Below the pieces are notes generated by a model that was not told where the DNA came from, did not search any database, and saw only the letters and a list, made by a program, of their open reading frames with translations. Positions 4,245 to 17,518 of a stretch of 17,518 bases of DNA are shown here, one piece after another. Positions within the stretch are counted from its first letter, which is position 1. The number at the start of each line of letters is the position of its first letter. Source of the stretch: an uncultured Chromatiaceae bacterium (GTDB taxonomy: Bacteria; Pseudomonadota; Gammaproteobacteria; Enterobacterales; Alteromonadaceae); contig CAMLRA010000080.1 in the NCBI GenBank assembly GCA_946482325.1, positions 1-17,518 of the forward strand, given 5' to 3'. The position numbers and the translations under genes are program-made.

Positions 4245-4892
4245 TTAATTTTGGCGATTGTTGCGGTTATCCGGACTGTAATTCAGCCGGGCCTGACTGG
4301 GCTGAACATTGTCCTGCCAGTATTGCCAGTCGGCCTGCCGTTGCTGATTTAGGTATTCCACCAGCTCCAGCATGTCCCCGCGTCGGTTTTTCTGTTCGGC
4401 TTCGGTCAGGTAATCCTTCAAGAGGATCAACTGCGACGCCTGTTGTTGTTGCTGTGTCTGCAGTTGTAACTGCAGATACTGTTGTTGTTCGGTTTTGTAG
4501 CTGGCCAGTTGTGCCGCTACTTGTTGCTGTACCTGCAGCTGCACGGCGGCCGGGTCAACGTCGCTCCAGCGCAGCGCGATGCCGCCGTCCTGCATTTGCA
4601 GACTTAACGGCGACATGCTGATCACCAATGCCATTGCAGACATGCCGACACTGAGTTTTGGCCACCAGGATGTCGCCCGCGGTGTTTTGTGGCCCCATTG
4701 CTGGCGGAACATGGTGCTCGTATCGACCTGCGGCACCGGCGGATAATCCGGCTGCCGTGCCAGTTGCTGTAACTGGGCGGCGGTTTCAAATCGGGCCCGC
4801 CAGACCGGGTCATGCGCCAGCGCGCTGCGGCAGGCATCTGTGGTCAGATCACCGGCGAGCCAGGCGTCAAAAACTTGCTGACTGTTCGACAT
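4245..4892 (-). CDS. Putative membrane-anchored anti-sigma factor
   Basis: 215 residues. The N-terminal part (1-75: FDAWLAGDLTTDACRSAL, HDPVWRARFETAAQLQQL) resembles the short helical sigma-binding segment of anti-sigma factors. One hydrophobic segment follows at about 79-100 (LSVGMSAMALVISMSPLSL). Then comes a glutamine-rich, probably helical periplasmic part (QVQQQVAAQLA, LQLQTQQQQQ) ending in QNNR-type polar sequence. The zinc motif of ZAS anti-sigmas (HxxxCxxC) is absent. The ATG at 4892 follows GGAGG. The gene overlaps the sigma-factor gene by 26 bases (4867-4892), which suggests translational coupling and supports the anti-sigma role. Identification rests on position and topology more than on sequence. 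Confidence 0.78.
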   Translation of the reverse strand: MSNSQQVFDAWLAGDLTTDACRSALAHDPVWRARFETAAQLQQLARQPDYPPVPQVDTSTMFRQQWGHKTPRATSWWPKLSVGMSAMALVISMSPLSLQMQDGGIALRWSDVDPAAVQLQVQQQVAAQLASYKTEQQQYLQLQLQTQQQQQASQLILLKDYLTEAEQKNRRGDMLELVEYLNQQRQADWQYWQDNVQPSQARLNYSPDNRNNRQN

Positions 4893-5430
4893 CGTGGTCC
4901 TCCAATTGCACCCGAAGTTTATCCAGGGCGCTATAAAATCTTGATTTGACTGTATTACTTGAAATGGCCAACTGGTCGGCAATTTCGTCAAAGGTGAAAT
5001 GCTGATAAAACCGCAGTTCGACCACCAGCTTTTGCTCCGGTGGCAGCGTCTTTAATTTTTGCTGCACTAACGTCTGGGTTTGTTGTTCAGACAATTGCTG
5101 CTCATGACTCTGCTGGTCTTCATGCTCCAGTTCCGGCAAATCATCTAAATCCTGCGTTGGTTTGCGTTTACGCAGCATGTCCATGGCGCGGTAGTTGGCG
5201 ATGCCAAATAACCAGGTTTTAAAACTGCTGTCACCGCGAAACTGCGCCAGATTGCGGCACAGCACCAATAACACATCCTGCAGCAGGTCGCGGGCATCGT
5301 CCGGGTTGCCCATCAACCGCAGGCTGTAATAGTACAAAGCCGACTGATAACGGCCGACCAGCTGCTGCCAGGCGCGCTCATCACCGTGGATGGCTTTGTC
5401 GATTAAGGTTTCGTCGCTGCGTTTAAACAC
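4867..5430 (-). CDS. ECF-type RNA polymerase sigma factor
   Basis: A sigma-70 family protein of the extracytoplasmic-function class. Region 2 is DETLIDKAIHGDERAW, ALYYYSLRLMGNPDDARDLL, then FKTWLFGIANYRAMDMLR. Region 4 is LPPEQKLVVELRFYQHFTF and SSNTVKSRFYSALDKLR, a helix-turn-helix that reads the -35 box. An acidic Q-rich linker joins them. There is no in-frame ATG at the front: the frame extends to a TTG at 5532, and the only other ordinary start is GTG at 5430. I chose 5430 because it puts region 2 six residues from the start, as in RpoE, and because the extension is translated from A/T-rich, promoter-like DNA. Neither start has a good ribosome-binding site. Overlap with the next gene suggests a regulated operon, probably autoregulated. 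Confidence 0.88.
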   Translation of the reverse strand: MFKRSDETLIDKAIHGDERAWQQLVGRYQSALYYYSLRLMGNPDDARDLLQDVLLVLCRNLAQFRGDSSFKTWLFGIANYRAMDMLRKRKPTQDLDDLPELEHEDQQSHEQQLSEQQTQTLVQQKLKTLPPEQKLVVELRFYQHFTFDEIADQLAISSNTVKSRFYSALDKLRVQLEDHDVEQSASF

Positions 5431-5715
5431 TGTCTGGTCTGTTTCTGCGTTGTTGATATGCCTTGGTCGCGGCAGGGGTTGATTAAGTTTGGCAAATTCG
5501 CAAAAAAGCCAAAAAATTTTAGAAATAATCAAAAAGTTATTCTATTTCATATAGTTCTGTTTTGACTATTTTTCACTACGCCAGACCTTTGGACTGTTAT
5601 CCGTAGCCGCGCCGGGCATTTTGTTGTTCATCACAAGGCGAATAGTCGCTGAAGTAGATCCGATGGCCTGAGACTGGCGTACTGCGTTCACAACCTCTAT
5701 GAACCGGACCCGCAG
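5431..5715. promoter_or_regulatory. Divergent intergenic region between the ECF sigma gene and the DUF3833 lipoprotein gene
   Basis: About 285 bases, rich in A/T at 5500-5575. It should contain promoters for both directions, but I see no confident -35/-10 pair or ECF-type GGAAC box. TACGCCAG (5577-5584) and CTGGCGTA (5674-5681) form a widely spaced 8-bp dyad. If the sigma gene starts at the TTG at 5532, the gene-free part shrinks to 183 bases. Confidence 0.4.
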
Positions 5716-9089: not shown

Positions 9090-10541
9090 ATGCAACAGGA
9101 TCCAGTGATTCAGCAGTGGCTGGAACAGGCAGAGCAACAGCTTAAAACTCAGCTGGGCTTGCTGGCGCAGCAAATACAGCAACAACAGCGGCAGTGGCAG
9201 GACCAGCAACAGCTGCAGCTGGCGCAACAGGCGGCACCTGAGTTGGCGGCATTGCAGGCTGAAACTCAGCAACTCAGACAACAGCTGGAAGCCGCGCAGC
9301 AGCAAGCGCAACAAAGCGCAGCGGCACTGCATGAGGCACAAACACAAAATAAAGCCGCGCAAGATGAACGTGACGAAGCGCTGGCGGCGATGCGCCGTCT
9401 GGCCGATCAGCTGAGGCTCAGTCAGGACGAATTCCGCCAGGAGAAGTTGCTGGGCCTGTCGTTGCAACAACAGTTAGTGCAGCAGGAGCAGCAGCTCAGT
9501 ACTGCGTTACAACAACAGCAACAACTGCAGCAGCAGTTGGCCTCAGTTGCGGCCGAGCTGGAACAGACAGCACAACAAGGCCAAAACGCCAGATCCGAAG
9601 AAATGACTGCATTACAGACTGAACTGGCCGAAGTTCGTGCCAGCCTGAATGCGGCTGAAACCGCGGCCAGCCAACAGCTGACGCAACTGAATCAGTTACG
9701 CCAGCAATTGCAGCAGATGACCGACACTGATCAGCAGCTGCAGCAACAACTACACCATCAACTGCAACAGCTCGATAACGCTGAATTGCAGCGTCGGCAA
9801 TTAGAACAACAGCTGGTAGCCGCTGCCGGTGACAGTCAGCTGCAGCAACAACAGGCTGAACAGCTGCAGTTGCTGACACTTGAGCATCAACAGCAACAGG
9901 CGGAACTGTTCAAGTTGCGGGATTTGCTGCAACAGGCGCAGCAGGAGCAACAGGCGCTGCGGCAAGCGCAGGACGCGCAGCTGCAACAACAGCAGCTTCG
10001 GGCGCAGCAATTGTTGGAGTCGGTCAATGCTGAGCGCGACAGCGCCCGGCAGGAGCGGCAACAACTGCAAGCTCAACTGGTGCATCTGCAACAAATGCAG
10101 CAGGAATTTGGTCTGATACAACAAGAGCAGCAGACGCTGCGTGCTGAGCGCGATACTTTGCTGGCGTCGGTCACACAGTTACAGCAGCAACTGGCTGAAA
10201 CCAGCAATCAGTTTGAAGCCCAACAACAGGCGCTGCAGGCGCAGCAACAGTTACAAACCGAAATTGACACCTTATTGCAGCAACAGCAGGACTGGCAACA
10301 ACAGCAACACAAGCTGGAAAGCCAGTTGTTCCGTGCACAGGCCAGGGTCGACAGTATCGAAGAGCGGCAGCAGGCAGAAGCTGAGCAGTCGCGGGAAACC
10401 ATCCGCCAGTTACGTTTGCAACTGTTGCAGGAACAAGCGGCCGCGCAGGAACAAATCCAGCAGTTGCAGCAACAGGCCACTGAATTCCGGCTGAAATTTG
10501 ATTATGCGCAAAAACAGCTGCAACAACAGTCGCAGTCATAA
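9090..10541 (+). CDS. Glutamine-rich long coiled-coil protein
   Basis: 483 residues of unknown function. About 35 of the first 100 residues are glutamine, and the rest is leucine, alanine, glutamate and arginine in heptad-like order (LRQQLEAAQQQAQQSAAAL, ERDSARQERQQLQAQLVHLQ). It is predicted to be one continuous, cytoplasmic coiled coil: there is no signal peptide, no membrane segment and almost no aromatic residue. The DNA is an imperfect mixed CAG/CAA run, which keeps the reverse strand and other frames free of stops and creates several false long reading frames. The start, ATG at 9090, is three bases after the MarC stop; the ribosome-binding site is weak, so translational coupling is likely. 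It could be a scaffold or filament-forming protein, but that is only inference from the coiled coil. Confidence 0.85.
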   Translation: MQQDPVIQQWLEQAEQQLKTQLGLLAQQIQQQQRQWQDQQQLQLAQQAAPELAALQAETQQLRQQLEAAQQQAQQSAAALHEAQTQNKAAQDERDEALAAMRRLADQLRLSQDEFRQEKLLGLSLQQQLVQQEQQLSTALQQQQQLQQQLASVAAELEQTAQQGQNARSEEMTALQTELAEVRASLNAAETAASQQLTQLNQLRQQLQQMTDTDQQLQQQLHHQLQQLDNAELQRRQLEQQLVAAAGDSQLQQQQAEQLQLLTLEHQQQQAELFKLRDLLQQAQQEQQALRQAQDAQLQQQQLRAQQLLESVNAERDSARQERQQLQAQLVHLQQMQQEFGLIQQEQQTLRAERDTLLASVTQLQQQLAETSNQFEAQQQALQAQQQLQTEIDTLLQQQQDWQQQQHKLESQLFRAQARVDSIEERQQAEAEQSRETIRQLRLQLLQEQAAAQEQIQQLQQQATEFRLKFDYAQKQLQQQSQS

Positions 10542-15837: not shown

Positions 15838-15864
15838 AAACTGCGGTTGAAATCAGTCAACCGC
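15835..15864 (-). terminator. Intrinsic terminator of the EAL/HDOD gene, overlapping the ftsX stop region
   Basis: GCGGTTGA-CTGATT-TCAACCGC (minus strand, 15864 to 15843) is an 8-bp perfect stem followed on that strand by AG and five T. The stem overlaps the last codons of the EAL/HDOD gene (stop at 15853), and the T tract touches the ftsX stop codon. On the plus strand it lacks a T run but may still stabilise the ftsYEX message. Confidence 0.7.
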
Positions 15865-17076
15865 CGCTTCCTGCATCAAGCCATGTGCCCAGCTGACCGC
15901 ATCGAGATATGTCATGCTGAGATCCCGCGCAGTGCTAAACAGTTGCGTCGTTAACTGCTGTTGTAAGTCCCACTCGCCATTTTCATAGGCTTTGGTCAAT
16001 TGCAGATAAAGCCCAAGCCTTCCCTGATGTTCCAGCAAAGCGGCTTTGATTTCCGGCAGTATCGGTAAATCGTCCAATAGTTGCTGCAATGGCTGTTCCA
16101 GCAGGGCATCAACCAGCGAAAACAATCCAGTCAGGAACGCAGCCGGCGGATTGTCGGCATCGCCCATGATGGATGCCAGCTGGTCACAGAATCTGGCCCG
16201 CACTATCGACATATGCAGTAATTCACTGGGGCCGTCTTCTTTCAGATTGGCCAGCGCCAGTAAGGCAATAAACTTTTTCAGCTCGCCTTCACCCATATAC
16301 ACCATGGCGTGTTTTAACGAGCCAATCGGCTGCTCACGGGCAAAGCTGGCGCTGTTCACAAAGCGCAGCAATTTATACGACAAGCCCAGATCACGTTCGA
16401 CAATGGCCGTCAGCTTTTCAAAATCCAGCCGCAGTGCACTGGACTCAGCAATCAGCAGCAGCAGATTTAATTTACTGCTGGCGATTTTTTTATGCTTCAG
16501 CATCTCCGGCCGGGCGAAAAAATAACCCTGAAACAACGTAAAACCGAGTTGTTTCAGCTTTTCGTATTCGGTCTGGGTTTCGACTTTTTCGGCCAGTAAA
16601 GTGACAGGGTGATGTTTGACCCGCGATACATATTTGCTGATCTGCAGAATATTAAACTGCCGCACGTCCACTTTGATAAAGCTGATATAAGGCAGAAAAA
16701 TGTCCCATTTCGGGTCAAAGTCGTGATCATCCAGCGCCAGCTTATAGCCCATACGATGCAGCTCGCGGCATGCAGTCAGCAGTTCCATACTGATCGGCAC
16801 CGTTTCCAGCACTTCAATCACCATACTGTGCGGATTAATCGAAGTGGGAAAATGGTGAATGAGCGTATCGGCGGAGAAATTGATAAATGCCTGATGGCCA
16901 CCGGTGATTTTCTCAACACCCATCAGCAGGTGATGTTCAGTAATAAGTTTTGACGTCGCCTCATCGGCGTTGATATCGGGAAAACTGTTTTGCACCCCAT
17001 CACGGAATAACAGTTCATAGCCAAATAAGTTTTTATGCTGATCAAAGATCGGCTGGCGTGCCAGGTAACAATACAT
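15853..17076 (-). CDS. EAL-HDOD domain protein (YuxH/CdgJ type signalling protein)
   Basis: 407 residues. The EAL-like domain (about 3-200) starts ARQPIFDQHKNLFGYELLFRDG, the usual opening of EAL-HDOD proteins. Candidate active-site positions are E21 (ExLxR form), N67, E88, D116/D117, K135, E163 and Q183 (QGYFFARP); however the loop after the DD pair reads DDHDFD instead of DDFGTG, so catalytic activity on c-di-GMP is uncertain. The C-terminal HDOD domain (about 200-390: LNLLLLIAESSA, LGLSYKLLRFVNSASF, LKHAMVYMGEGELKKFIALL) is a helical, non-catalytic relative of HD phosphohydrolases. Relatives affect motility and surface attachment. I chose the ATG at 17076, six bases after AGGAG; an open frame runs to 17241 but its extra 55 residues are unlike the family. 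It is an insertion into the ftsX-rpoH neighbourhood. Confidence 0.94.
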   Translation of the reverse strand: MYCYLARQPIFDQHKNLFGYELLFRDGVQNSFPDINADEATSKLITEHHLLMGVEKITGGHQAFINFSADTLIHHFPTSINPHSMVIEVLETVPISMELLTACRELHRMGYKLALDDHDFDPKWDIFLPYISFIKVDVRQFNILQISKYVSRVKHHPVTLLAEKVETQTEYEKLKQLGFTLFQGYFFARPEMLKHKKIASSKLNLLLLIAESSALRLDFEKLTAIVERDLGLSYKLLRFVNSASFAREQPIGSLKHAMVYMGEGELKKFIALLALANLKEDGPSELLHMSIVRARFCDQLASIMGDADNPPAAFLTGLFSLVDALLEQPLQQLLDDLPILPEIKAALLEHQGRLGLYLQLTKAYENGEWDLQQQLTTQLFSTARDLSMTYLDAVSWAHGLMQEAAVD

Positions 17077-17248: not shown

Positions 17249-17254
17249 TATAAT
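17249..17254 (+). promoter_or_regulatory. Possible -10 box of a sigma-70 promoter for rpoH
   Basis: TATAAT, a perfect -10 hexamer, 93 bases before the rpoH ATG in an A/T-rich stretch. No convincing -35 lies 16-18 bases upstream. Transcription from here would place the CIRCE palindrome in the leader, where it usually lies in HrcA-controlled genes. Confidence 0.35.
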
Positions 17255-17273
17255 TTGGTTCTTAAAAACGCGG

Positions 17274-17300
17274 GAACCGGCATTAGCACTCTCTGTCAAA
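17274..17300 (+). promoter_or_regulatory. Possible sigma-E type promoter for rpoH
   Basis: GAACCG (17274-17279, with a further G before it) resembles the sigma-E -35 box GGAACTT. After 16 bases comes TCAAA (17296-17300), similar to the -10 consensus TCTRA. The E. coli rpoH P3 promoter has the same class and spacing. The -35 lacks the final TT, so the match is partial. It overlaps the CIRCE palindrome. Confidence 0.35.
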
Positions 17301-17309
17301 GAGTGCTAA
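17283..17309. promoter_or_regulatory. Perfect CIRCE element (HrcA operator) upstream of rpoH
   Basis: TTAGCACTC (17283-17291), nine bases, then GAGTGCTAA (17301-17309): all 18 arm positions match the CIRCE consensus, including the N9 spacer. CIRCE is the binding site of the heat-shock repressor HrcA, which normally controls groESL and dnaK operons. It ends 37 bases before the rpoH ATG and would also form a hairpin in the leader RNA. HrcA itself is not in the window. Confidence 0.85.
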
Positions 17310-17346
17310 CATGAGTCCACTTTCACATCTCCACAGGAGTTTGTTC

Positions 17347-17518
17347 ATGACCAAAGCGAATCAATTGATGACATTGTCAGTCGCAGGCAGCGGTAGCCTT
17401 GAGGCTTATACTCACGCTGTCAGTACTATTCCGATGCTGTCGGCTGAAGAGGAACGCGCTCTGGCTGAACGTCTGCAGCAACACGGTGACCTGGAAGCGG
17501 CCCGTCAGCTGATTATGT
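17347..17518 (+). CDS. rpoH: RNA polymerase heat-shock sigma factor (sigma-32), N-terminal part, cut by window end
   Basis: 57 codons are visible. The text (LEAYTHAVSTIPMLSAEEERALAERL, then QQHGDLEAARQLIM) aligns with E. coli RpoH ([39 protein letters not shown]). RpoH directs RNA polymerase to chaperone and protease genes in heat shock. AGGAG lies seven bases before the ATG at 17347. An in-frame ATG at 17311 would add 12 residues, but it lacks a ribosome-binding site and the real one would then lie inside the gene. The location after ftsYEX is the conserved gammaproteobacterial order, apart from the intervening EAL/HDOD gene. Regulation probably includes the CIRCE element in its leader. Confidence 0.95.
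   Translation, partial: MTKANQLMTLSVAGSGSLEAYTHAVSTIPMLSAEEERALAERLQQHGDLEAARQLIM

Follow-up and report, generated by a model that had tools for sequence, protein, structure and literature searches.

A candidate HrcA operator apparently merged with a sigma-E-type promoter before rpoH in Rheinheimera and other Gammaproteobacteria

Accounts of bacterial stress responses usually treat HrcA (with its operator CIRCE), sigma-32, and sigma-E as circuits that are separate or run in parallel, and Escherichia coli does without HrcA. In Bacillus, HrcA and CIRCE control the class I heat-shock regulon, with operators at groE and dnaK, and GroEL is established as the sensor for HrcA. An alternative view, from Campylobacter, is that HrcA itself senses temperature (PMC8533110). 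The described arrangement that is closest to ours is in Geobacter sulfurreducens, which contains hrcA and for which a perfect CIRCE was predicted at -51 from the start of rpoH (Rodionov et al. 2004, PMC545781). Input from sigma-E into rpoH has also been described: the P3 promoter of E. coli rpoH is reported to be sigma-E-dependent, and in Bordetella bronchiseptica SigE, which is of the RpoE type, is reported to transcribe rpoH (fam) in vitro (both PMC3490749). The form given for RpoE promoters is GGAACTT and TCAAA (PMC4890791).

The window that we analysed (the whole stretch of DNA, 17,518 nucleotides) contains the CIRCE operator TTAGCACTC-TCTGTCAAA-GAGTGCTAA at 17283-17309, and both arms match exactly. 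It lies in the leader of rpoH, 37 bases before the start codon at 17347. The features around it are as follows.

15853-17076, minus strand: gene for an EAL-HDOD protein, divergent from rpoH, with CIRCE in the intergenic region that the two genes have in common (from the list of open reading frames and domain matches)
17249-17254, plus strand: TATAAT, tentatively the -10 of a possible sigma-70 promoter (read in the leader)
17273-17279, plus strand: GGAACCG, sigma-E-type -35, with 5 of 7 bases as in GGAACTT (leader alignment and motif score)
17283-17309, plus strand: CIRCE, the HrcA operator, with left arm 17283-17291, spacer 17292-17300, and right arm 17301-17309 (word match)
17295-17300, plus strand: GTCAAA, sigma-E-type -10 within the CIRCE spacer, 15 bases past the -35 (leader alignment)
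17335-17339, plus strand: AGGAG, ribosome-binding site of rpoH (read in the leader)
17347-17518, plus strand: first 57 codons of rpoH (sigma-32), truncated by the end of the window (ATG start and profile matches)

Nothing else in the window matches CIRCE at up to 3 mismatches, and none of 200 dinucleotide shuffles of the window gave a match. The 57 residues of rpoH match NCBIfam PRK06596 (RNA polymerase factor sigma-32, 1e-12) and TIGR02392 (rpoH, 2.3e-10); these scores are below the whole-protein cut-offs because the gene is partial in the window. The identification agrees with the open frames upstream, which we read as ftsY-ftsE-ftsX, and with full-length rpoH in relatives. So the perfect CIRCE before rpoH that the sequence-only reading had claimed is there.

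Elsewhere in the window, we noticed a gene for an ECF sigma factor (Sigma70_r2 and r4; 4870-5532, minus strand). A frame that overlaps and follows it (4245-4916, minus strand) has no match in Pfam and may encode an anti-sigma factor. We also note a frame of 483 residues (9090-10541, plus strand) with 160 glutamines, which is perhaps a coiled coil.

We consider it likely that the operator controls rpoH, in an arrangement where HrcA would gate transcription of rpoH driven by sigma-E (and perhaps by sigma-70) and where sigma-32, GroESL, and HrcA would form a loop. The argument starts from what can be read in genomes: the operator, its conservation, its co-occurrence with hrcA, rpoH as the sole target, groESL without CIRCE, and the enrichment of a sigma-E motif. 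From these we infer the binding of HrcA, the use of the promoter by sigma-E, the direction of the regulation, GroEL as the sensor, and the feedback loop.

At three loci (a Rheinheimera metagenome-assembled genome (MAG), a gammaproteobacterial MAG, and R. texasensis DSM 17496), FtsX has 93-98% identity to that of the window; the identity is 77-80% at six further loci and 51-52% at two Paraferrimonas loci. We therefore place the window in a Rheinheimera close to R. texasensis. We sought hrcA in these relatives, and the nine nearest genomes are seven Rheinheimera and two gammaproteobacterial MAGs. All nine contain hrcA (in G004 it is split across two contig ends), and all nine have kept the palindrome upstream of rpoH, which at up to 2 mismatches is the only CIRCE in each genome. 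With no second site at this threshold, we see neither CIRCE control of groESL or the dnaK operon nor autoregulation of hrcA via CIRCE in any of the nine. HrcA of R. texasensis exceeds the TIGR00331 equivalog cut-off (231.8 vs. 197.2 bits), its DNA-binding domain is slightly below the Pfam cut-off (20.7 vs. 21), and grpE follows hrcA. The two Paraferrimonas genomes of the nearest-locus set gave no match to hrcA, and nothing in the loci that we fetched from them, which include rpoH, is fewer than 6 mismatches from CIRCE. One of the two has a 2-mismatch match elsewhere, with no rpoH-like frame beside it.

For wider surveys, we used family, order, and class as in a GTDB-based taxonomy. NCBI places Rheinheimera in the Gammaproteobacteria, Chromatiaceae, while its GTDB family is, we take it, Alteromonadaceae. 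We drew 118 genomes evenly from the family to which R. texasensis belongs; the HrcA model has a match in 20, which is above the Pfam cut-off in 19. CIRCE is found at up to 2 mismatches in 23 genomes and at up to 1 mismatch in 20, and in every one of those 20 it lies before rpoH. These 20 are the 19 genomes with hrcA plus G120, so that just 1 of the 99 other genomes has the operator, and in the family genomes with hrcA, rpoH is the sole target. In G120, hrcA was found neither with the Pfam model nor with the HrcA protein of a relative as the query. Three genomes (G013, G032, and G055) have 2-mismatch sites alone and lack hrcA. The 2-mismatch sites L021, L040, L051, and L042 (G011, G013, G032, and G055) have no rpoH-like frame and are excluded from the counts at up to 1 mismatch; for L042 and L051, the check for open reading frames found none of 60 residues.

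The order behaves in the same way. HrcA model matches occur in 28 of 247 genomes, 27 of them above the cut-off, and the 27 genomes with CIRCE (up to 1 mismatch) are the very same 27; the 28th match, in G050, is below the cut-off and that genome is without CIRCE. The operator targets rpoH in all 27 (24 plus G007, G028, and G029), and 19 of them have CIRCE at groES in addition. As far as comparison goes, then, the hierarchy that the sequence-only reading had proposed, with HrcA above rpoH, is well supported by hrcA and the palindrome in 9 of 9 nearest genomes and by co-occurrence in 27 of 247 genomes of the order. Of the outcomes that this reading had named as refutations, neither a lack of hrcA nor a lack of conservation at rpoH was what we saw in these relatives.

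In a sample of 321 genomes drawn evenly over the class, 231 have CIRCE (up to 1 mismatch) and 230 have hrcA: 217 have both, 77 have neither, 14 have CIRCE alone, and 13 have hrcA alone. We assigned targets in 84 of these genomes, 32 with multiple sites among the matches listed and 52 that we selected by eye from the genomes with a single site (without G007). Among the matches listed for the 32 multi-site genomes, CIRCE is at rpoH in 29, at groES in 31, and at hrcA in 9; in the 52 picked by eye, it is at groES in 32, at rpoH in 19, and at hrcA in 1. (L143, at a contig end, was left unclassified, and its genome, G218, is counted as lacking CIRCE at rpoH.) CIRCE at rpoH is thus widespread in the class, so the link to rpoH is probably old. 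This survey rules out our early idea that the arrangement is rare. Nor is the placement before rpoH the exception that it had been taken for, given its spread in the class and the prediction of 2004 for Geobacter sulfurreducens (PMC545781).

Seven genomes of the class (G142, G164, G225, G254, G303, G347, and G440) have CIRCE at rpoH and no detected hrcA. With HrcA from G091 as the query, one that is distant from the genomes of the class, there was no match in G120 or in six of the seven (G303 excluded). Incomplete assemblies or recent loss of hrcA would explain such cases.

Some leaders of rpoH have two sites. In the family, G046, G059, and G122 each bear a pair of CIRCE-like sites separated by 31-33 bases, and 17 of 24 genomes of the order have such a pair at 31 or 33 bases. 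We observed these pairs, about three helical turns apart, at L041, L038, L050, and most of L232-L246; at groES, the same genomes have at most one site at up to 1 mismatch. The spacing suggests that HrcA may bind cooperatively or with looping of the DNA. We also noticed that the HrcA proteins of G074, G108, and G029 are very diverged (Pfam E values of 1e-7 to 5e-9 and a tree branch of 3.5). At rpoH, these genomes have a perfect CIRCE and a sigma-70-like promoter (L065, L066, and L067).

What has become of the other targets of HrcA? We read the groES leaders of 23 genomes with CIRCE at rpoH (22 with hrcA, plus G120). In all 23, the nearest CIRCE-like stretch is at least 6 mismatches off, and in all 23 there is a sigma-32-like promoter (at least 10 of 13 matches to CTTGNNN-N13/14-CCCNAN, in a scan without a shuffled control). 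All 8 hrcA-grpE leaders that we read from the nearest genomes contain CCCCACTATA; in six of them TTGATT comes before it, and in two TTGTTT does. We read this element as a sigma-32 promoter; in the promoter scan, the hrcA-grpE leaders of Rheinheimera fell below the threshold. At three loci from a related group, CTTGAAT-N13-CCCCAT precedes hrcA-grpE.

When we built a tree from 50 HrcA proteins, all genomes with rpoH as the sole target fell on one side of a single branch, with support of 97/98. We regard this as support and not as proof, as the tree has long branches, which may join falsely. The labels on the tree use up to two mismatches for genomes of the family and one for genomes of the order. 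The outgroups G405 and G297 are labelled as having operators at rpoH plus groES, and at up to 1 mismatch they have operators at hrcA, or at hrcA and groES, alone. G616 was given the same label by kinship (we saw only its rpoH sites), and G004 was omitted as its hrcA is split.

In the rest of the order, CIRCE at groES is itself joined to a sigma-32 promoter. The end of its spacer and its right arm read CTTGAGT, followed by 13 bases and CCCCAT, in 17 of 19 leaders, some of which are from close kin. The same combination is found at groES in 0 of 63 leaders from the class and in 21 of 950 sequences with shuffled downstream bases. (L269-L274 of the order sample are examples of operators that share bases with the sigma-32 promoter.) Since operator and promoter are fused in this way, loss of the operator with the promoter kept would be an easy route to a single target.

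We turn to the promoter of rpoH. In the alignment of leaders, GGAACTT starts 10 bases before CIRCE, and GTCAAA, 15 bases further on, fills the final six positions of the spacer. Together the two blocks have the form given for RpoE promoters (PMC4890791). Among the nine nearest genomes, six have a perfect -35 (7 of 7). The motif of the window, GGAACCG-N15-GTCAAA, scores 11 of 13, and the nine nearest relatives score 11 to 13; GGAACCG is common to the window and two of its closest relatives. We also defined a strict form (a -35 with at least 6 of 7 bases, 15-16 bases between, and NTCNNA, with one leader per genome), which the window fails because its -35 has just 5 of 7. As a positive control, the strict test finds TGAACTT-N15-GTCTGA in the rpoH leader of E. 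coli, which we take to be the known P3. RpoE itself (TIGR02939, above the cut-off) is present in 26 of 26 relatives.

The strict form is found in 52 of 72 rpoH leaders from the class and order, with the -10 extending into CIRCE in 38 of the 72, and it is absent from the other 20. It is found in 0 of 82 groES leaders and 0 of 10 hrcA leaders; for rpoH against groES, Fisher's exact test gives 8e-25, although such p-values overstate independence because leaders within a clade are related. In the family, window aside, 10 of 26 leaders have the strict form, 9 of these with the -10 inside CIRCE. With the looser score of at least 11 of 13, the motif is found in 59% of 27 family leaders (including the window and the nine nearest genomes) vs. 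1.3% with shuffled flanks, and in 36% of 89 rpoH sites from the class and order vs. 0.5%, with 0 of 82 at groES and 0 of 10 at hrcA.

Two further tests concern the spacing. The final A of the -10 would coincide with the third base of the CIRCE spacer, which gives a test that is independent of the -35: this base is A in 36 of 38 leaders whose -35 is 16 or 17 bases before CIRCE, in 14 of 34 other rpoH spacers, and in 9 of 82 groES spacers. There are 30 matches to the -35 in other registers, with two from a few of the leaders. TCNNA follows at a spacing of 15 bases in 25 of them and of 16 bases in 1, and no other spacing between 8 and 24 bases yields more than 5. We also permuted the -35 word. 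The real word is found in 54 of 72 leaders, which none of 400 permuted words reached (the best, at 49, was the same word shifted by one base), while at groES it is found in 4 of 82 leaders, close to the permuted mean of 4.4. Among the 27 family leaders, it is found in 11, equalled by 1 of 400 permuted words (TGGAACT, which is again the word shifted by one base). The enrichment of the -35 is weaker in the family than in the class and order. Judging from these motifs, CIRCE at rpoH mostly overlaps a sigma-E-type promoter or lies just past it, with a -10 that is often made up of operator arm and spacer.

Which promoter would HrcA act on? HrcA might instead block a sigma-70 promoter whose -10 is the TATAAT at 17249-17254, with CIRCE as a roadblock 28 bases downstream, so that the sigma-E look-alike would be decayed or unused. 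That word, the -35 of the sigma-E-type promoter in the window (5 of 7, weaker than in most relatives), and related clades with an apparent sigma-70 promoter and CIRCE near +1 (L044-L046, judged by eye; some other clades show neither type of promoter) are what make this a possibility, if a rather doubtful one. Against it, TATAAT is not conserved, as aligned relatives have TACAAT, TAAGAT, or GACTAT at this place (by eye); we found no sigma-70 promoter with a proper -35 in the window leader (best total 8 of 12); and few columns outside the arms are as well conserved as those of the GGAACTT block and the spacer's GTCAAA. A sigma-32 promoter for autoregulation of rpoH is not credible in the window leader either, as the best score is 8 of 13.

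That the palindrome acts as RNA, as a leader hairpin that governs the stability of rpoH mRNA or serves as a thermometer, seems very unlikely to us. In the leader RNA as predicted, the arms can pair to give a hairpin of 10 bp, but the fold of the whole leader is no better than that of shuffled sequences (z of -0.83) and the window has no Rfam match above the gathering score, so we set the thermometer aside. Furthermore, in the order, the HrcA word tracks hrcA (27 of 27 genomes vs. 0 of 220), and a transcript that starts past the sigma-E-type -10 would begin in the right arm, with no hairpin left. Because CIRCE is symmetric and lies between two divergent genes, one could also imagine that the EAL-HDOD gene is the true target and rpoH a bystander. 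But rpoH is downstream in all 20 genomes of the family and all 27 of the order with a site at up to 1 mismatch, while L032-L034 and L044-L050 have no frame of at least 60 residues that starts within 250 bases on the other side, and we hold this idea to be extremely improbable. Finally, G120 and the seven class genomes with CIRCE at rpoH and no detectable hrcA are what one would expect of an operator that is a relic and no longer functions. We can give this hardly any credence for the window, as the arms are exact even though the leaders have diverged, only 27 genomes of the class have one of hrcA and CIRCE without the other, and hrcA has been kept in all nine of the nearest genomes, where no other operator remains within 2 mismatches.

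Under the reading that we prefer, in which HrcA controls rpoH through CIRCE, active HrcA would sit on the operator when proteins are well folded and would stop RNA polymerase at the rpoH promoter. Bound at 17283-17309, it would mask the spacer together with the -10 and start region of the sigma-E-type promoter, and it would obstruct transcription that starts at an upstream sigma-70 promoter. Because the operator overlies the sigma-E-type promoter, HrcA would gate the input from envelope stress into rpoH. Folding stress would inactivate HrcA, and rpoH would then be transcribed in proportion to the activity of sigma-E, where that promoter is intact. Sigma-32 would turn on groESL and probably hrcA-grpE as well. 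Since both lack CIRCE and have sigma-32-like promoters, new GroEL and new HrcA would restore repression.

More broadly, we lean towards the view that this composite gate at rpoH is found across the Gammaproteobacteria that have kept HrcA, that in Rheinheimera it has become a single node, that the union of operator and promoter was made at least twice, and that groES has a sister composite. Such a gate would let envelope stress, acting through sigma-E, raise sigma-32 only when folding stress has freed the promoter of HrcA. In the commonest register, the left arm of CIRCE and the spacer would supply the -10. The registers differ, with the -35 at -16 relative to CIRCE class-wide and at -10 in the Rheinheimera clade. 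At groES in the order, the CIRCE spacer and the right arm would supply the -35 for sigma-32. And in the family of Rheinheimera, HrcA would have turned from a repressor of chaperones into a dedicated feedback repressor of the gene for sigma-32.

So a single spot before rpoH seems to join three stress circuits, those of HrcA, sigma-32, and sigma-E. If this is true, then the three meet at a short stretch of DNA before rpoH in many Gammaproteobacteria, and the wiring of E. coli, with sigma-E alone at P3, may be a remnant after the loss of HrcA. Fusion of CIRCE with promoters for alternative sigma factors may be a general means by which HrcA is connected to sigma circuits. Also, because they have one operator and one target gene, the organisms with a single CIRCE should be a clean system for studying what HrcA senses.

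How does this compare to the known systems? In the literature that our search covered, which did not extend to Permina and Gelfand 2003 or to RegPrecise, CIRCE before rpoH came up in one paper (PMC545781), and we saw none in which it is combined with a sigma-E promoter. As in Bacillus, the operator and the repressor family are the same and the operator is in a promoter-proximal leader. Unlike in Bacillus, the target is the gene for a sigma factor rather than chaperones, and hrcA of Rheinheimera has no CIRCE. Our control genome of E. coli has no match to HrcA, and within the 5 kb around its rpoH nothing is nearer to CIRCE than 7 mismatches. The P3 promoter of E. coli is of the same type and at the same gene, but the one described here is overlain by an operator. 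For the rpoH promoter of Bordetella bronchiseptica, CIRCE and HrcA are not mentioned in the part of the paper that concerns it (PMC3490749). In Geobacter sulfurreducens, groESL and hrcA-grpE-dnaKJ also bear CIRCE, while in the order that we sampled the operator is constant at rpoH and not at groESL; the part of the Geobacter paper on the rpoH site does not discuss a sigma-E promoter there (PMC545781). CIRCE before rpoH has itself been predicted already, for Geobacter sulfurreducens (PMC545781). What is special here, judging from the genomes that we compared, is that rpoH appears to be the sole target and that the operator appears to be merged with a sigma-E-type promoter.
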